The position numbers and the translations under genes are program-made. A stretch of DNA of 24,552 nucleotides from an uncultured Rikenellaceae bacterium (lineage in GTDB: Bacteria; Bacteroidota; Bacteroidia; Bacteroidales; Rikenellaceae), in the NCBI GenBank assembly GCA_947074135.1, contig CAMTOL010000004.1:1-24552 (forward strand), given 5' to 3'. Below, piece by piece: positions 3,181 through 24,462 of the stretch (within the stretch, counting starts at the first letter, position 1; each line of letters starts with the position of its first letter). A model generated the notes under the pieces. It saw nothing but the letters and a program-made list of their open reading frames with translations. It made no database searches and was not told the DNA's origin.

Positions 3181-5037
3181 ATGATAAAGATACTATCTGC
3201 ATTAACACTCACAGCCTCGTTAGGGCTCATATCGTGTACCAATAACACAACTCAAGACCTAGCTCTCAACTACCCAAACATTATTGAGATTGACACTACT
3301 CCACAAACAGTAAGAGGTTGTTCTGGACTTTACACCGAACAAGGAGCTTGGATAGGATTTACAACGCCCAAATCATCAGATGCAACAGGATTTAGTGGAC
3401 CTTTCGATATCGACAACCGCAACTGGTTAAGTCGAACAATAGTAGGCGTAGATGACTTTAAAATCGATAGTTCGAGATACTACCCTGGCAAATTAATAAT
3501 GTGGGGTAAAGATAACGACGGCAGACAAATCACACAAACACTTTTCTTTACTGATATAAACTGCGCTATCATTGAACTGATTGCAGACAGTGGCAAAGAG
3601 TGGAGACTCAGTGGCGATATCTGGTACAACAAAGCATTAAAATCATTTGCCAACGATGGCATTACTATTAGTCTGCCTCGAGGCGAACAGTGCCAACTGA
3701 CACTACCCAAATTCAGAGTAAGCAAAACCAGTGATTCGACCTATAGCGCAACAAAAGATAGTAAGAGCGAAAAAGCATACGCCTACATCTCGTTTTTCAA
3801 TAGCGAAAACGAGATAAGTCCAATTCCCAATACCTCAATCGAGGAGCTAAAACAACAACACACCAACCGTTGGAATAGCTATATCACTTCGATTCTTCGC
3901 AAAGATATGCCACAAGAGTACAACCGAATAGCTGTAAAGTGTTTAGTAACCCTCATTAGCAATTGGCGCAGCGCAAAGGGTGACCTGTTTCACGACGGTA
4001 TAGTACCATCACACGCTGTGAACTACTTTGTAGGTTTTTGGGGCTGGGACTCGTGGAAACACGCAGTTGCAGTGGCAATGTTCGACAAAGAGTTGGCTAA
4101 AAACCAGATTAAGGCAATGTTTGACTACCAAAACGAAGATGGAATGATTATCGACTGCATATACAGTGACAAAAACGAAAACAATGCTCGTGACTCTAAA
4201 CCTCCACTCGCTGCTTGGGCTGTAGCTACCATCGATGACAAAGATTTTACTGCCGAAATGTATCCAAAACTATTGAAATACTACAACTGGTGGTACATTT
4301 CTCGCGACAACAACCAAAATGGCATACCTGAATTTGGCTCAACCGATGGAACACTCGAAGCTGCTGCTTGGGAGAGCGGAATGGATAACGCAGTTCGTTA
4401 TGACGATGCTGGTATGGTCAAAAATCACGAAGGAGCGTGGAGTTTTAATCAAGAATCTGTCGATTTGGCGGCATATCTTGTCTATGAATACGAACTACTA
4501 CAACAGATGGCAGCACAACTTGGGATTGAATGCACCGCTACTCCAATTGAAAAAGAAAGAGTAGCGAACTATTTCTTCGATACCGAAGATGGTTTCTTCT
4601 ACGACAAACGCCTCGCTGATGGCTCTTTTGTTAAGGTACAGGGTTGCGAAGCATACACTCCTTTATGGAGTGGTATCGCTACGAAAAATCAAGCCGATGC
4701 TGTTTATAAAGTATTGAGCGACACATCAAAATTTTCGACCTATATCCCAATGCCAACACTTTCGGCTGCCGAACCTAAGTTTATGCCTAAAGGATACTGG
4801 AGAGGTCCAATTTGGTTAGACCAAACTTATTTCGGTATTTCCGGACTTCGCAAATATGGCTACAAAGAGGCTGCTGATAAATACACAACTCAAGTCTTTG
4901 ACCGTCTATATGGATTAAAAAATGGTGCTCCAATCCACGAAAACTACGGCACTCACACAGGCGAACTGCTCAAAGCTCCACATTTTAGCTGGTCGGCGGC
5001 CCACCTACTAATGCTCTACCACGAATACGGAAAATAG
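3181..5037 (+). CDS. MGH1-like (GH63/GH37-type) alpha/alpha-barrel glycoside hydrolase, lipoprotein
   Basis: A 618-residue lipoprotein with an (alpha/alpha)6-barrel catalytic domain of the GH63/GH37/mannosylglycerate-hydrolase-like type; Bacteroides homologues are often annotated as trehalase-like or putative isomerase. The signal peptide ends in the lipobox GLISC (C19), so the enzyme is membrane-anchored, probably periplasmic or surface-exposed. Residues 30-240 form a beta-rich N-terminal domain. The barrel carries GFWGWDSWKH (285-294), the clan motif WESGMDN (397-403, D402 the probable general acid), GPIWLDQTYFG, and HENYGTHTGE near the C-terminus, which should supply the base Glu (about E587). 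The substrate cannot be read from the sequence; alpha-glucosides or alpha-mannosides are typical of relatives. It follows the GH2 gene by 73 bases, and a strong hairpin follows its stop, so the two form a transcription unit. Confidence 0.82.
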   Translation: MIKILSALTLTASLGLISCTNNTTQDLALNYPNIIEIDTTPQTVRGCSGLYTEQGAWIGFTTPKSSDATGFSGPFDIDNRNWLSRTIVGVDDFKIDSSRYYPGKLIMWGKDNDGRQITQTLFFTDINCAIIELIADSGKEWRLSGDIWYNKALKSFANDGITISLPRGEQCQLTLPKFRVSKTSDSTYSATKDSKSEKAYAYISFFNSENEISPIPNTSIEELKQQHTNRWNSYITSILRKDMPQEYNRIAVKCLVTLISNWRSAKGDLFHDGIVPSHAVNYFVGFWGWDSWKHAVAVAMFDKELAKNQIKAMFDYQNEDGMIIDCIYSDKNENNARDSKPPLAAWAVATIDDKDFTAEMYPKLLKYYNWWYISRDNNQNGIPEFGSTDGTLEAAAWESGMDNAVRYDDAGMVKNHEGAWSFNQESVDLAAYLVYEYELLQQMAAQLGIECTATPIEKERVANYFFDTEDGFFYDKRLADGSFVKVQGCEAYTPLWSGIATKNQADAVYKVLSDTSKFSTYIPMPTLSAAEPKFMPKGYWRGPIWLDQTYFGISGLRKYGYKEAADKYTTQVFDRLYGLKNGAPIHENYGTHTGELLKAPHFSWSAAHLLMLYHEYGK

Positions 5038-5242: not shown

Positions 5243-6151
5243 ATGAATAAAATAATAAAACTATCAGTCACCCTACTACTGTTTACAGCGTCACTCACAA
5301 CTCAATCGTGCGGCAATACTGAACCTCAAAAACAGCAAGAAAACACAGAAAAAAAATTCACTCTCCCTGCAATTCCAGCTGTATTAACAACTCCAGGACA
5401 AAGAGTTGAGTTTTTGTTGCTTAACTACTGGAATAATTTTAATTATGCTGATACTTCACTTATCAACAATGCTGATTATACCTAACAAGCTTTTACAGAT
5501 TTTATTTACATATTCCCTAACGCTACCGAACAAATAATTAAGTCGAGTATCAACAAGAACATAGTTGAAGCTTTAGAAGGTTCACCTGAAATGTTAGACT
5601 ATTTTATGGAGTTGTACGAAAAATACTTTTACGACCCCAACTCTCCGATGCGCCAAGAGGACTTCTATATTATGTACCTACAAAATATAATAGCAAATGA
5701 CAAGATTGATGATATGCTTAAAATAAGACCAAAATATCAACTTGAGATGTCGCTCAAAAATCGTCCAAACGATATAGCTACCAACTTCAGTTTTGAACTT
5801 AGAAATGGGCAAACACAACAACTAAAATCTATTAAGAGTAATTACACCATACTATTTTTCAATAATCCAGATTGCACAGACTGTAAAAGAGTTAAAGAGT
5901 TATTCGAAGATAATAGAATGCCTAACACAAAGATTGTAGCCATTTATTGTGACGACGACAAAGAGCTTTGGAGAAACACAGAGTATGACAAAGAGTGGAT
6001 CAATGGTTACTCTAAAAAGGTGTCAGACGACAAAATTTACGACCTACGAGCTATACCTGCTTTATACCTTTTGGACAAAGACAAAAAAGTTATACTAAAA
6101 GATGCTACTGCTGAGATGATTCTCAGCTATATTTACCAGAACAACAATTAG
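5243..6151 (+). pseudogene. DUF5106/thioredoxin-fold lipoprotein gene interrupted by one nonsense codon
   Basis: One reading frame runs from ATG 5243 to the stop at 6149-6151 (302 codons) but contains a single TAA at 5483-5485, after NNADYT. The residues after it (QAFTDF) continue in the same frame without further damage. The first part has a lipoprotein signal ending in TTQSC (C23) and a DUF5106-like start (RVEFLLLNYWNNFNYADTS). The second part carries a TlpA-like thioredoxin domain with CTDC (about C211 and C214 of the full frame) and the cis-Pro segment RAIPALYLL. Family members usually have Glu-Gln-Ala-Phe here, so GAA to TAA would explain the stop by one change. The intact protein would be a periplasmic, membrane-anchored thiol-disulfide protein. 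Either the gene is recently inactivated, the base is a sequencing error, or the stop is read through; restart at ATG 5591 would lack the export signal. Confidence 0.8.
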
Positions 6152-21717: not shown

Positions 21718-22580
21718 TTAATTATCGAACGTTAGTAATACCCCACTGCTTTCAACTTTTAGTTCGACCTCACCACCTAAGTAGAAAGATAAGTTCGACG
21801 ATTCGTGACCAGCAGGAAACCCGAATGCAACTGTGATTTTATACTGTTAGAAACATCTTCAAAAAAAAGGATATAATCCCCTCTACGCATATCAATATCA
21901 TAGTCAGTGCCAATTGCCGAAGCAATCAATGAAAGATTGCCTCCAATCAACCGACCACGACACTGTCCATACTGATTAAATGGATTTGGCGCAACCTCAA
22001 TCTACCGAAGTTCGCCACTCAACGCCCCAATCAATGAAATAACCCCTACACTATCCAATGTGCCGTCGTTATCGAAAAACTTGACAGGCATAGTAGAGTG
22101 AATACTCTTAATTCCTTGCCTCGAGAGAGCTAAATGAATAGCAGTTACATCACTAAATCCAGCTATCCATTTTTTAGAACTACGCACCCTACCCCATTCA
22201 ATATAATCAAACACTCGAACTGCACCATAACCGCCTTTATACATCAAAATAGCCTTAACATTTGGATCGTCAATCATAGACATAAACTCCCCTGCCCGTT
22301 CAATATCAGTCGCACCAAAAGAGTTATCATGCTGCGATAGTAGATGTTTCCCGTATTTTACAGCAAAACCCAAAGAGTCTAATAGTTTGGTTAACGCTGC
22401 GGTGTCGCTCTGTTCTGCAACCTTGGTCGATACAGATATTATTCCAATTGTATCTCCTCTTTGCAGAGAGTTTGGAGTGATAGTGTTGCGGGTATGTTTT
22501 TGTGGTATCTTGTTTTGAGAATACAAATCAACAGATATTAGTGTTAGAGCGGCTATTAGAGTGAGTTTTAATTTTAACAT
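21718..22580 (-). pseudogene. Decayed exported S66 LD-carboxypeptidase-type gene
   Basis: Family S66 serine peptidases cleave tetrapeptides of peptidoglycan between L- and D-residues. This one has a signal peptide (MLKLKLTLIAALTLISVDLY) and reads intact for 192 codons, including KGGYGAVRVFDYI and the nucleophile Ser in AGFSDVTAIH (S143). A TAG at 22004-22002 interrupts it after GELR. The same frame continues with IGGNLSLIASAIGTDYDID and FFEDV (the catalytic Glu region), then shifts frame: FGFPAGHE with the catalytic His, and a normal C-terminus ending at 21718, are in another frame. Only about 18 residues separate FFED from PAGH where about 65 are expected, so roughly 150 bases are also missing. 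At least two lesions make it a pseudogene. Confidence 0.88.
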
Positions 22581-22631: not shown

Positions 22632-22657
22632 CAGAGATATTAACAAGTAATTTGACA

Positions 22658-24082
22658 ATGATAAATAGTTTTGACAGTACAATTGTAGCGCTTTCAACTG
22701 CTACAGGCGGTGCACTTTGCGTTGTTCGTCTTAGTGGCTCACACGCATTAGAGATAGTTAACAAACATTTTGGAAATTCTCTTGAAGATAGATTAGCATC
22801 ATTTGGAATATTTCGCAACGAACAAGGTGAACCGTTAGACGAGGTTGTCTGTACATTTTTTAAGGCTCCTCGTTCGTTTACAGGCGAAGATTTGGTCGAG
22901 ATTTCTTGTCACGGTTCTGCATTTATAGCATCTGAAATAGTACGATTGTGTGTTTTGAGCGGTGCGAGAGTTGCAACGGCTGGAGAGTTTTCAAAACGAG
23001 CCTTTTTGAATGGCAAGATGGATTTGAGTCAGACCGAAGCAGTTGCAGATATGATAGCTTCGAGCAGTCTGGAGTCGGCACGAATGGCGCTTAATCAGAT
23101 GCGAGGAGGTTATTCGGCGGAGCTGAGCGGATTAAGGGGTAAGTTACTGAATATTAAATCATTATTGGAGTTGGAGTTAGATTTCGGAGATGAAGATGTA
23201 GAGTTTGCTTCGAGGGAGGACTTAGTGCGATTATTGGGAGAGTTGAGGGATAGGTGTAGTAGTTTGGCGGAAAGTTTTTCAGTTGGCAATGCGATTAAGA
23301 GTGGCGTTGCAGTAGCAATAGTTGGCAGGCCAAATGTAGGAAAATCCACACTTCTAAATGCTTTAGTTGGAGAGCAGAGAGCGATAGTTTCGAGTGTTGC
23401 AGGCACGACGAGGGATTACATTGAAGAGCGAGTAGTGATTAATGGCATTGAATTTCGGTTTGTGGACACAGCGGGGATACGTGCAACAGAAGATGAGATA
23501 GAAGCGATTGGTGTAGAGCGTTCATTAGAGCGAATGCGTAGGTCAAAGATAGTTTTACAGTTGGTTGACAGCGATGATTATGATAGGGTTGAGATTACAG
23601 AGGGTCAGGAGTTGCTGGTAGTAATGAATAAGTCAGATTTGGTTGACAATAAAGAGTTAGCGTTAAATTCAGTAAGAACTACAAGCGTCACTAGTACATT
23701 TTCTCTTGTTTCTGTTAGTTCCACCCTAGCTACGACTAGTGTTTCTTCTGCCAAAGATGGTAATGGAATTGACATTTGTATAAGTGCAAAGTATGGGATT
23801 TGTATTGATGAGTTACGGGAGCGTTTGGTTGATTTGAGTGGATTGGGGTTTATTAGTTTAACACAGGATGTTGTAGTAAGTAACGAGCGTCATTGGGAGT
23901 TATTGAGCAAGGTAGTAGATTCGGCGGAGTCTGCGATAGAGTCTATAGAGTTAGGTGAGAGCGGTGATTTGGTTTCTTTTAGGATAAGTTCCGCGTTAGA
24001 GTATTTAGGTGAGATAACAGGCGAGTTCACCACCGACGAGATCCTCGGCACGATTTTCTCCACTTTCTGCATCGGAAAATAA
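22658..24082 (+). CDS. mnmE: tRNA uridine-5-carboxymethylaminomethyl modification GTPase
   Basis: A 474-residue GTPase that, with MnmG, modifies U34 of certain tRNAs. I chose ATG 22658 (MINSFDSTIVALSTATGGAL); a TTG at 22652 would add only two residues. Residues 1-120 form the folate-binding N-terminal domain. The helical domain is split around the G domain, which has G1 GRPNVGKS (223-230), G2 region GTTRDYIEE, G3 DTAG, G4 NKSD (324-327) and G5 SAK (376-378). Between G4 and G5 lies an unusual Ser/Thr-rich insert (about 338-368). The C-terminus ends in the catalytic FCIGK motif. The last 20 codons are markedly richer in C-ending codons than the rest. A terminator follows. The gene's 3' end appears to serve as an integration site. 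Confidence 0.97.
   Translation: MINSFDSTIVALSTATGGALCVVRLSGSHALEIVNKHFGNSLEDRLASFGIFRNEQGEPLDEVVCTFFKAPRSFTGEDLVEISCHGSAFIASEIVRLCVLSGARVATAGEFSKRAFLNGKMDLSQTEAVADMIASSSLESARMALNQMRGGYSAELSGLRGKLLNIKSLLELELDFGDEDVEFASREDLVRLLGELRDRCSSLAESFSVGNAIKSGVAVAIVGRPNVGKSTLLNALVGEQRAIVSSVAGTTRDYIEERVVINGIEFRFVDTAGIRATEDEIEAIGVERSLERMRRSKIVLQLVDSDDYDRVEITEGQELLVVMNKSDLVDNKELALNSVRTTSVTSTFSLVSVSSTLATTSVSSAKDGNGIDICISAKYGICIDELRERLVDLSGLGFISLTQDVVVSNERHWELLSKVVDSAESAIESIELGESGDLVSFRISSALEYLGEITGEFTTDEILGTIFSTFCIGK
24008..24082 (+). other. Putative attachment site: intact copy of the mnmE 3' end
   Basis: These 75 bases encode the MnmE tail from GEITGEFTTDEIL to FCIGK and stop. Two degenerate copies of the same segment lie 326 and 370 bases downstream, just before a mobile-element-type gene. 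The last 18 bases (TTCTGCATCGGAAAATAA) are the same FCIGK-stop segment that SGI1 integrase uses as attB in gamma-proteobacteria. The exact crossover point cannot be fixed from one junction. Confidence 0.5.
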
Positions 24083-24125
24083 CACGCTGATTTTCAGTAA
24101 ATTGAATTAAAATAGACTTTACTTT

Positions 24126-24150
24126 AAGTGCTCATAATGAGCACTTTTTT
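24126..24150 (+). terminator. Rho-independent terminator of mnmE
   Basis: A perfect 9-bp stem, AAGTGCTCA (24126-24134) with TGAGCACTT (24138-24146), 3-base loop TAA, followed by T residues. It begins 43 bases after the mnmE stop. Between it and the decamer repeats at 24279, the sequence shows no gene. Confidence 0.85.
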
Positions 24151-24278
24151 TATGTCCTGTCCTCATTTCGGTAAAACCATTTTTACTCTGTTTTACTTCG
24201 TTTTCCGAACATTTTTGACCAAAATCGTAAGTCTGTGTCAGATTGACTTTACTTCTTTACCCTAAAATGTCGTCAGTT

Positions 24279-24328
24279 TAGACGAGCATAGACGAGTGTG
24301 TACGAAGATAGACAGACTTAGACGGAGA
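24279..24328. repeat. Five tandem 10-bp degenerate direct repeats
   Basis: Consecutive decamers read TAGACGAGCA, TAGACGAGTG, TGTACGAAGA, TAGACAGACT and TAGACGGAGA. All five keep T..AC, and four keep TAGAC. The exact 10-base period puts each copy on the same face of the helix. Position beside the putative attachment site suggests accessory binding sites for a recombinase or excisionase, which is an inference. Confidence 0.7.
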
Positions 24329-24333
24329 TAACA

Positions 24334-24375
24334 AGTGAAATAACCGGCGACATCTTTGGAGATATATTTAGGACT
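24334..24375 (+). repeat. Degenerate mnmE 3'-end copy (second)
   Basis: Read in the frame starting at 24334, this gives SEITGDIFGDIF then RT, matching the GEITGE...LGTIFST segment of MnmE with about five or six codons missing. A 9-base GAGATAACA at 24325-24333, identical to the start of the mnmE tail at 24011, may be the edge of a further copy. It has no start codon and is not expressed as a gene. Confidence 0.55.
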
Positions 24376-24377
24376 AA

Positions 24378-24452
24378 GGTGAAATAACTGGCGAAGTAAT
24401 CACCGATGATATTCTTAGTAATATATTGACATATTTCCAACCACAAATATAA
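24378..24452 (+). repeat. Full-length diverged mnmE 3'-end copy (third)
   Basis: Exactly 75 bases, as in mnmE 24008-24082, and ending in a stop codon at the same position. It encodes GEITGEVITDDIL (10 of 13 residues identical to the MnmE tail) and then diverges, with FQPQI replacing FCIGK. By hand count 46 of 75 bases match. Unlike the tail attached to mnmE it keeps the local AT-rich codon style. Confidence 0.7.
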
Positions 24453-24462
24453 TAAAAAAATT

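Follow-up and report, generated by a model that had tools for sequence, protein, structure and literature searches.

The 3′ end of mnmE as an integration site in Bacteroidota, and a probable element end carrying an mnmE-like sequence in an uncultured Rikenellaceae bacterium

According to two published reports, SGI1 integrates into the last 18 bp of thdF (PMC2297512), and the SGI1 family, represented by SGI1 and MGIVchHai6, uses the 3′ end of this gene, also called mnmE or trmE, for integration and forms tandem arrays there (PMC2297512, PMC5704250). In open-licence titles and abstracts we found no description of mnmE as an attB site in Bacteroidota. The window analysed here, the entire contig C4 of 24,552 bp, belongs to an assembly of 2.09 Mb in 264 contigs that is 84% complete, and carries mnmE close to its right end. 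A preliminary description had seen three tandem copies of the mnmE tail in the window (copies 1, 2 and 3 below) and proposed that each insertion at this site pushes the previous tail downstream; the site and copy 3 proved to be real, copy 2 is better described as short repeats, and the displacement of tails is not supported. We consider it probable (about 0.7) that the sequence following the mnmE core to the right represents the near end of an integrative element put in by a tyrosine integrase, and that copy 3 is borne by this element and is no pushed-down tail. The element is probably an integrative mobilizable element or a defence island.

The end of mnmE and the interval behind it

The mnmE frame is 45–53% identical to MnmE homologues across most of its length, and what had been taken for its intact tail is indeed the 3′ end of the gene (Table 1). 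Codons ending in C make up 0.65 of the last 20 codons (24020–24082) and 0.08 of those before, with a change-point at 24020, and no other 19-codon stretch of the gene matches this jump (0/439). Judged by codon usage, the end of mnmE looks as if it had been brought in from elsewhere. A similar but longer jump is present at locus L089. Changes at p ≤ 0.01 occur in 16 of 53 mnmE genes with a zinc-ribbon gene behind them and in 13 of 87 without; the jump is suggestive only and was rejected as proof of a long replaced tail. Elsewhere in the window, inspection by eye showed an S66-peptidase-like frame (21760–22580, minus strand) with a stop after 192 codons, past which homologous-looking sequence resumes in frame, so that the gene may be broken; two neighbouring ORFs of 80 and 186 aa (5243–6151, plus strand) may likewise be one broken thioredoxin-like gene.

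Table 1. Features of the right end of the window
Feature	Position	Strand	Basis or remark
mnmE (tRNA modification GTPase gene), target of the element	22652..24082	+	476-aa frame
Copy 1, intact mnmE 3′ end, GEITGEFTTDEILGTIFSTFCIGK*	24008–24082	+	
18-bp att core, last mnmE codons (FCIGK*)	24065..24082	+	far-end core repeats in relatives G072, G061 and G077
Terminator-like hairpin and T run	24126..24151		by eye; self-inverted match
Two-unit 10–11-bp repeat TTTTTACTC..TTTTACTTC	24180..24200		relatives have their GTACC-type repeat pair here
10-bp iterons	24277..24325	+	lag-10 identity 0.55, 0/2000 base shuffles
12-bp GGNGANAT repeat region, includes copy 2	24319..24372	+	lag-12 identity
Copy 3, core-less element-borne mnmE-tail homologue, GEITGEVITDDILSNILTYFQPQI*	24378–24452	+	profile score, recurrence in relatives
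Start of zinc-ribbon gene, cut by contig end	24463..24552	+	30 residues; relatives also with excisionase-like HTH

Copy 3 is a genuine homologue of the mnmE tail, far past chance. Its score is 31.8 on a profile made from 105 MnmE tails, while 1500 first-order shuffles of the 470-nt interval gave a mean of -18.1 (SD 4.4) and a maximum of 2.0, and the best place in the window outside copies 1 and 3, on both strands, reaches -4.4. As had been reported, it equals copy 1 in length and ends in a stop, here TAA, in register with it. A DNA comparison of copy 3 with relatives that was shifted by 3 nt from the frame is not used. It corresponds to mnmE codons -24 to -9 from the end. The DNA of the two copies is identical at 46 of 75 positions, 37/57 ahead of the core and 9/18 within it. 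An in-frame TAA (24375–24377) lies directly upstream of copy 3, and a frameshift interrupts the related copies of L195 and L211; on these grounds the copies seem to be untranslated, and their translation was rejected.

Copy 2 (24334–24375), described earlier as another tail, scores -7.1 on the 105-tail profile, within the range of the shuffles, and was rejected as such. Since the stretch 24319–24372 is periodic at 12 bp (lag-12 identity 0.55, equalled by 1 of 2000 base shuffles), copy 2 is better described as part of a short tandem repeat of GGNGANAT, a unit that the codons GEITGEIT also spell; the array is absent from the output of Tandem Repeats Finder. The 10-bp period next to it is common to the leaders of 25 relatives (mean lag-10 identity 0.52). 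The idea of one HTH domain per iteron was abandoned, the number of HTH repeats showing no correlation with iteron span in 42 leaders. The two-unit repeat nearer to mnmE is a possible arm-type integrase site.

The gene that had been noticed as starting ten bases past copy 3 is an ORF which opens with MSSNLEITKICELCGSSFIAKKLTTQYCSH and belongs to a family marking such elements. Its 30 residues match A1/L035 at E 2.3e-6 and A2 at 1.6e-12; taken alone, they match no Pfam family. A search of the assembly, complete to 84%, did not recover the remainder of the gene. Five PF00589 matches are present there (the ORFs of three were inspected), and they do not lie beside a zinc-ribbon gene, as no other such gene was found in the assembly. 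Two elements of genome G002 have near ends with which the interval can be aligned as far as the contig end (71% over 532 nt and 68% over 512 nt), and a chimeric junction is therefore unlikely. In 5 of 17 other genomes (L277, L279, L283, L284 and L287) the contig stops about 0.6 kb or less past the zinc-ribbon gene.

Elements at the mnmE 3′ end in relatives

A first survey comprised 109 mnmE loci, from 80 named genomes and 29 relatives. In 108 of these, mnmE could be followed to its end, and with a strict motif a same-strand zinc-ribbon gene was recognized behind it in 16, a number that a later profile search raised. The gene family is present in 62 of 268 genomes of the taxonomic family, 69 of 393 in an order sample and 41 of 395 in a class sample, the three having been searched with different cut-offs and the 62 not all being located at mnmE. 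A full mnmE tail stands upstream of 107 of 129 distinct genes of the zinc-ribbon family (median gap 258 nt), and at least a core-like end upstream of 113 of 129; both counts are given because the core pattern is loose (shortest gap 63 nt), and they are not unbiased rates, since the fetched loci were mostly the best-scoring ones. With this frequency of the marker and its position behind the mnmE tail, mnmE is a recurrent integration site of Bacteroidota islands, and the repeated use of the site that the preliminary description postulated is borne out, also by stacked elements.

The zinc-ribbon protein of L035 has HTH_17 domains and a match to the excisionase model TIGR01764, and its gene is followed by that of a tyrosine integrase (PF00589, PF13102, PF17293). 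At L036 the order is zinc-ribbon gene, integrase (by eye) and genes of DUF3987 and DUF6371 proteins. An integrase was also recognized downstream of the zinc-ribbon gene by Pfam in G072 and by eye in G061, G092 and G251. A scan of IMG/VR for the zinc-ribbon protein gave 65 pattern matches, none of which was confirmed.

Three elements could be read at both ends: those of G072 (6.5 kb), G061 (7.7 kb) and G077 (19.4 kb). Their far ends repeat the last 18 bp of mnmE only, with 18/18, 15/18 and 15/18 matches, respectively, and each of the three far cores is preceded, at about 55 bp, by a GTACC-type repeat pair. The proposal that the mnmE 3′ end serves as an integration site, made earlier by analogy with SGI1-type islands, is thus upheld for Bacteroidota in the form of an 18-bp core. 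No empty site was demonstrated in a search by far-flank synteny.

Stacked elements occupy the site in G002, G251, G236, G259 and G432. Behind the mnmE of G002 comes an integrase element that has no zinc-ribbon gene. The first element of G002 (18.4 kb) has its own integrase, a relaxase (PF03432) and a type I methyltransferase, and behind it come a second core and a zinc-ribbon element. Two zinc-ribbon elements lie 18.8 kb apart in G251, the cores of G259 are spaced by 13.6 and 8.1 kb, and in G236 and G432 zinc-ribbon elements follow a core that is not that of mnmE. A defence scan of the proteins of three elements found, between two cores of G251 (locus L234), matches to Drt3a and Drt3b, the reverse-transcriptase pair of DRT3, together with a type IIG restriction enzyme, in the first element of G002 the type I methyltransferase, and weak matches only in the element of G092. 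With the content of the G251 element, mnmE may house defence islands.

In the window's own genome, the search for a far end gave 30 core-like sites at ≤2 mismatches, the window's own included. Among the 20 of these 30 that were scanned, a tail-like flank scoring above 20 occurs only on contig C36 (L344). There, on the minus strand at about 3665–3860, a relic resembling the mnmE tail, GELSTDDIYKYTFSIFCTRK*, whose core is degenerate, lies about 140 nt ahead of a second core-like sequence, between pflA-like and restriction-like genes. It is possibly an old or far junction. The locus has no match in three genus-mates, two of which are 65–68% complete.

mnmE-like sequences within the elements

Sequences resembling copy 3 recur in other elements. 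Two elements of G002 do not lie directly behind mnmE, yet they carry mnmE-like sequence between the iterons and the start codon. When up to 190 nt upstream of the gene were scanned on both strands, the window and G002 gave strong copies, while those of G174, G156, G144, G160 and G187 proved to be reverse-oriented; reverse-oriented copies occur in at least six hosts. Other families contribute a forward copy, DVRAILHYPGEIIGEIITD, at L259 of G327, and a reverse copy with a partial inverted repeat at L324 of G947. The leaders of L324 and of L328 (G879), 405 and 415 nt long, have the mnmE-like sequence within an inverted repeat.

A 455-column MnmE profile was run on 115 sequences (104 leaders and 11 far ends), with 220 internal windows as control. 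The 13 best of the 115 sequences all map within codons -43 to -7 from the mnmE end and score 25.4–50.9, above the control maximum of 25.1. In an enlarged set, 10 of 129 leaders exceed this maximum and 119 fall below it; L321, the next leader at 24.6, maps outside the relevant stretch of the profile. At the other end of the elements, a copy about 150–230 bp before the core is present in 4 of 11 far ends, above both the control windows and 780 own-length shuffles, the far arms tested being 260 nt and the control windows 190 nt long. The weaker far arm of G432 (18.0, p 0.004 against own-length shuffles) is left out of these four, and the set of 11 was obtained after dropping G251 20474 and G092 714, which are genuine mnmE genes whose tail is a variant one. 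None of the above-control copies, in leaders or far ends, includes an intact core.

The preliminary description would have been contradicted by the same repeats in relatives with no element downstream. Among 74 mnmE loci without a zinc-ribbon gene, which include genomes not proven element-free, none scores above the control; the best, at 24.0, maps elsewhere in the profile, L091 reaches 23.3 within the relevant stretch, and the row for L110 is an artefact of a misplaced core. The clade-mates L189, L190/L192 and L041 have no long copy.

Copies and the mnmE of their own hosts agree at 0.63–0.88 of codon positions 1 and 2 and at 0.26–0.48 of position 3 (the third-position comparison covers the 7 of 9 copies whose host tail was usable), while mnmE tails of different genomes agree with each other at 0.73 and 0.33, respectively. 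Third-position identities to other hosts have means of 0.29–0.36; the own-host values of L195, L211, L213 and the G002 far arm (0.47–0.48) are slightly above the mean and below the maximum. Recent copying from the mnmE of the present host is not clear from these values, and the variant tail of G251's own mnmE is mismatched to the copy in its element. The G002 far-arm copy contains a stop, as the copies of L195 and L211 contain the frameshift. Between L193 and L195/L213 the mnmE-like part is 66–67% identical and other parts 51–63%, which hints at retention of the copy. The window and G002 do not share a conserved arrangement (identity 0.45, compared with 0.64–0.67 nearby), a hint of turnover.

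The short motif GGNGAAATNA, which is the DNA of the codons GEIT, occurs in the forward orientation in 36 of 78 non-redundant linked leaders, and in 31 of 71 once strong copies are removed; 200 shuffles gave a mean of 0.41 and a maximum of 3. It is present in 1 of 13 unlinked leaders, a contrast confounded by the unlinked genes being also more distant relatives, and in 16 of 1500 element-internal windows. It starts 9–119 nt upstream of the start codon. Bacteroides faecichinchillae JCM 17102 (L035) and Bacteroides mediterraneensis (L036) have the motif or a variant of it and lack a long copy. Since its flanks are A-rich and the next base is usually other than the C of mnmE, the motif may be unrelated to mnmE; coincidence is possible for GGNGAAATNA, but not for the long copies.

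Origin of the copies and comparison with known systems

In relatives, the integration site and its core, the order of the genes and the fact that copies recur are all demonstrated. How the copies arose can be explained in several ways. Successive insertions stacking old tails downstream of mnmE would account for the full 75-nt length and in-register stop of copy 3, and the stacking of elements at mnmE, the odd codon usage of the last 20 mnmE codons, as expected of a replaced tail, and the C36 relic with its degenerate core point the same way. However, what is duplicated at the three elements read at both ends is the 18-bp core rather than a tail of 75 nt, copies 2 and 3 are core-less and inside the element, and the copies of relatives stand between the iterons and the HTH gene, sometimes reversed; we therefore regard displaced tails as improbable. 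Chance similarity within an AT-rich leader, which would suit copy 2 alone, is effectively refuted for copy 3, which lies about 11 SD over the shuffle mean, and with recurrences converging on one stretch of the profile it deserves almost no weight.

A stronger contender, to which we assign a little less than even odds, is that the copies are captured, decaying DNA: functionless mnmE fragments of earlier hosts at the same element-borne position. At about the same odds, illegitimate events such as template switching at GGNGAAAT microhomology would have brought them into the leader or the far arm. The match to mnmE at codon positions 1 and 2 and hardly at 3, as between genera, the frameshift and the stop, the restriction of the copies to a minority of elements in both orientations, and the differing arrangement in the window and G002 all agree with capture and decay. 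Against it stand the recurrence, in several lineages, of one mnmE segment at one place, and the higher identity of the copy than of its surroundings between L193 and L195/L213. A tentative alternative, to which we give rather less credence, is mimicry of the target flank: mnmE islands of Bacteroidota would carry copies of the mnmE DNA adjacent to the att core, placed in the leader of the excisionase-type gene and at times at the far arm, and acquired by lineages separately and in either orientation, and an element protein binding both would recognise the target beyond the core and sense integration by looping. On present comparisons we read copy 3 as a recognition site or as captured, decaying DNA, side by side.

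Whichever of these applies to copy 3, the repeats visible in the window, where the copy and the gene family are seen directly, are best taken as belonging to the regulatory end of a single element. In our preferred reading of the locus, that of an element's near end, a tyrosine integrase would insert the element at the 18-bp core made of the last codons of mnmE, which gives the order core, terminator, putative arm-type repeat, 10-bp iterons, GGNGANAT repeats, copy 3 and zinc-ribbon/HTH gene. The integrase gene is predicted to come next, beyond the contig, and the element is presumed to be mobile. Entire elements would stack at the core, each contributing about 18 bp of mnmE end, and copy 3 would be an element-borne duplicate of the mnmE stretch flanking the core, with the core itself left out. 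As to its role, we place narrowly first that of a recognition site which the target gene would have in common with the leader of the excisionase-type gene; an element protein bound to the mnmE flank and to the leader copy could then bridge the two or register that the element is integrated. Against such a role count the lack of an above-control copy in 119 of 129 leaders and 7 of 11 far ends, the clade-mates named above included, the mismatch in G251, the unconserved arrangement between the window and G002, the possibly unrelated short motif, and the HTH repeats not following the iteron span. The copies show that target-gene repeats next to an island are not necessarily insertion scars, and their recurrence opens a question that can be tested, namely how such integrases find their site or regulate it.

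In the choice of the last 18 bp of mnmE and in the formation of tandem arrays, the elements of the relatives resemble the SGI1 family, with which they were compared by site; they differ in their Bacteroidota hosts, in the zinc-ribbon/HTH gene and iterons at the near end and in the copies of the mnmE flank. With integrative mobilizable elements that accrete at the 3′ end of core genes they share a tyrosine integrase with an arm-binding domain, an excisionase-like gene, stacking and, in the first element of G002, a PF03432 relaxase, whereas copies of the target flank inside the element set them apart. A lambda-type attP contains arm-type integrase sites and Xis sites. The elements described here are similar to it in having short repeat pairs to either side of the core (three elements) and an excisionase-type gene with periodic sites, but their extra sites resemble the target gene beside attB.
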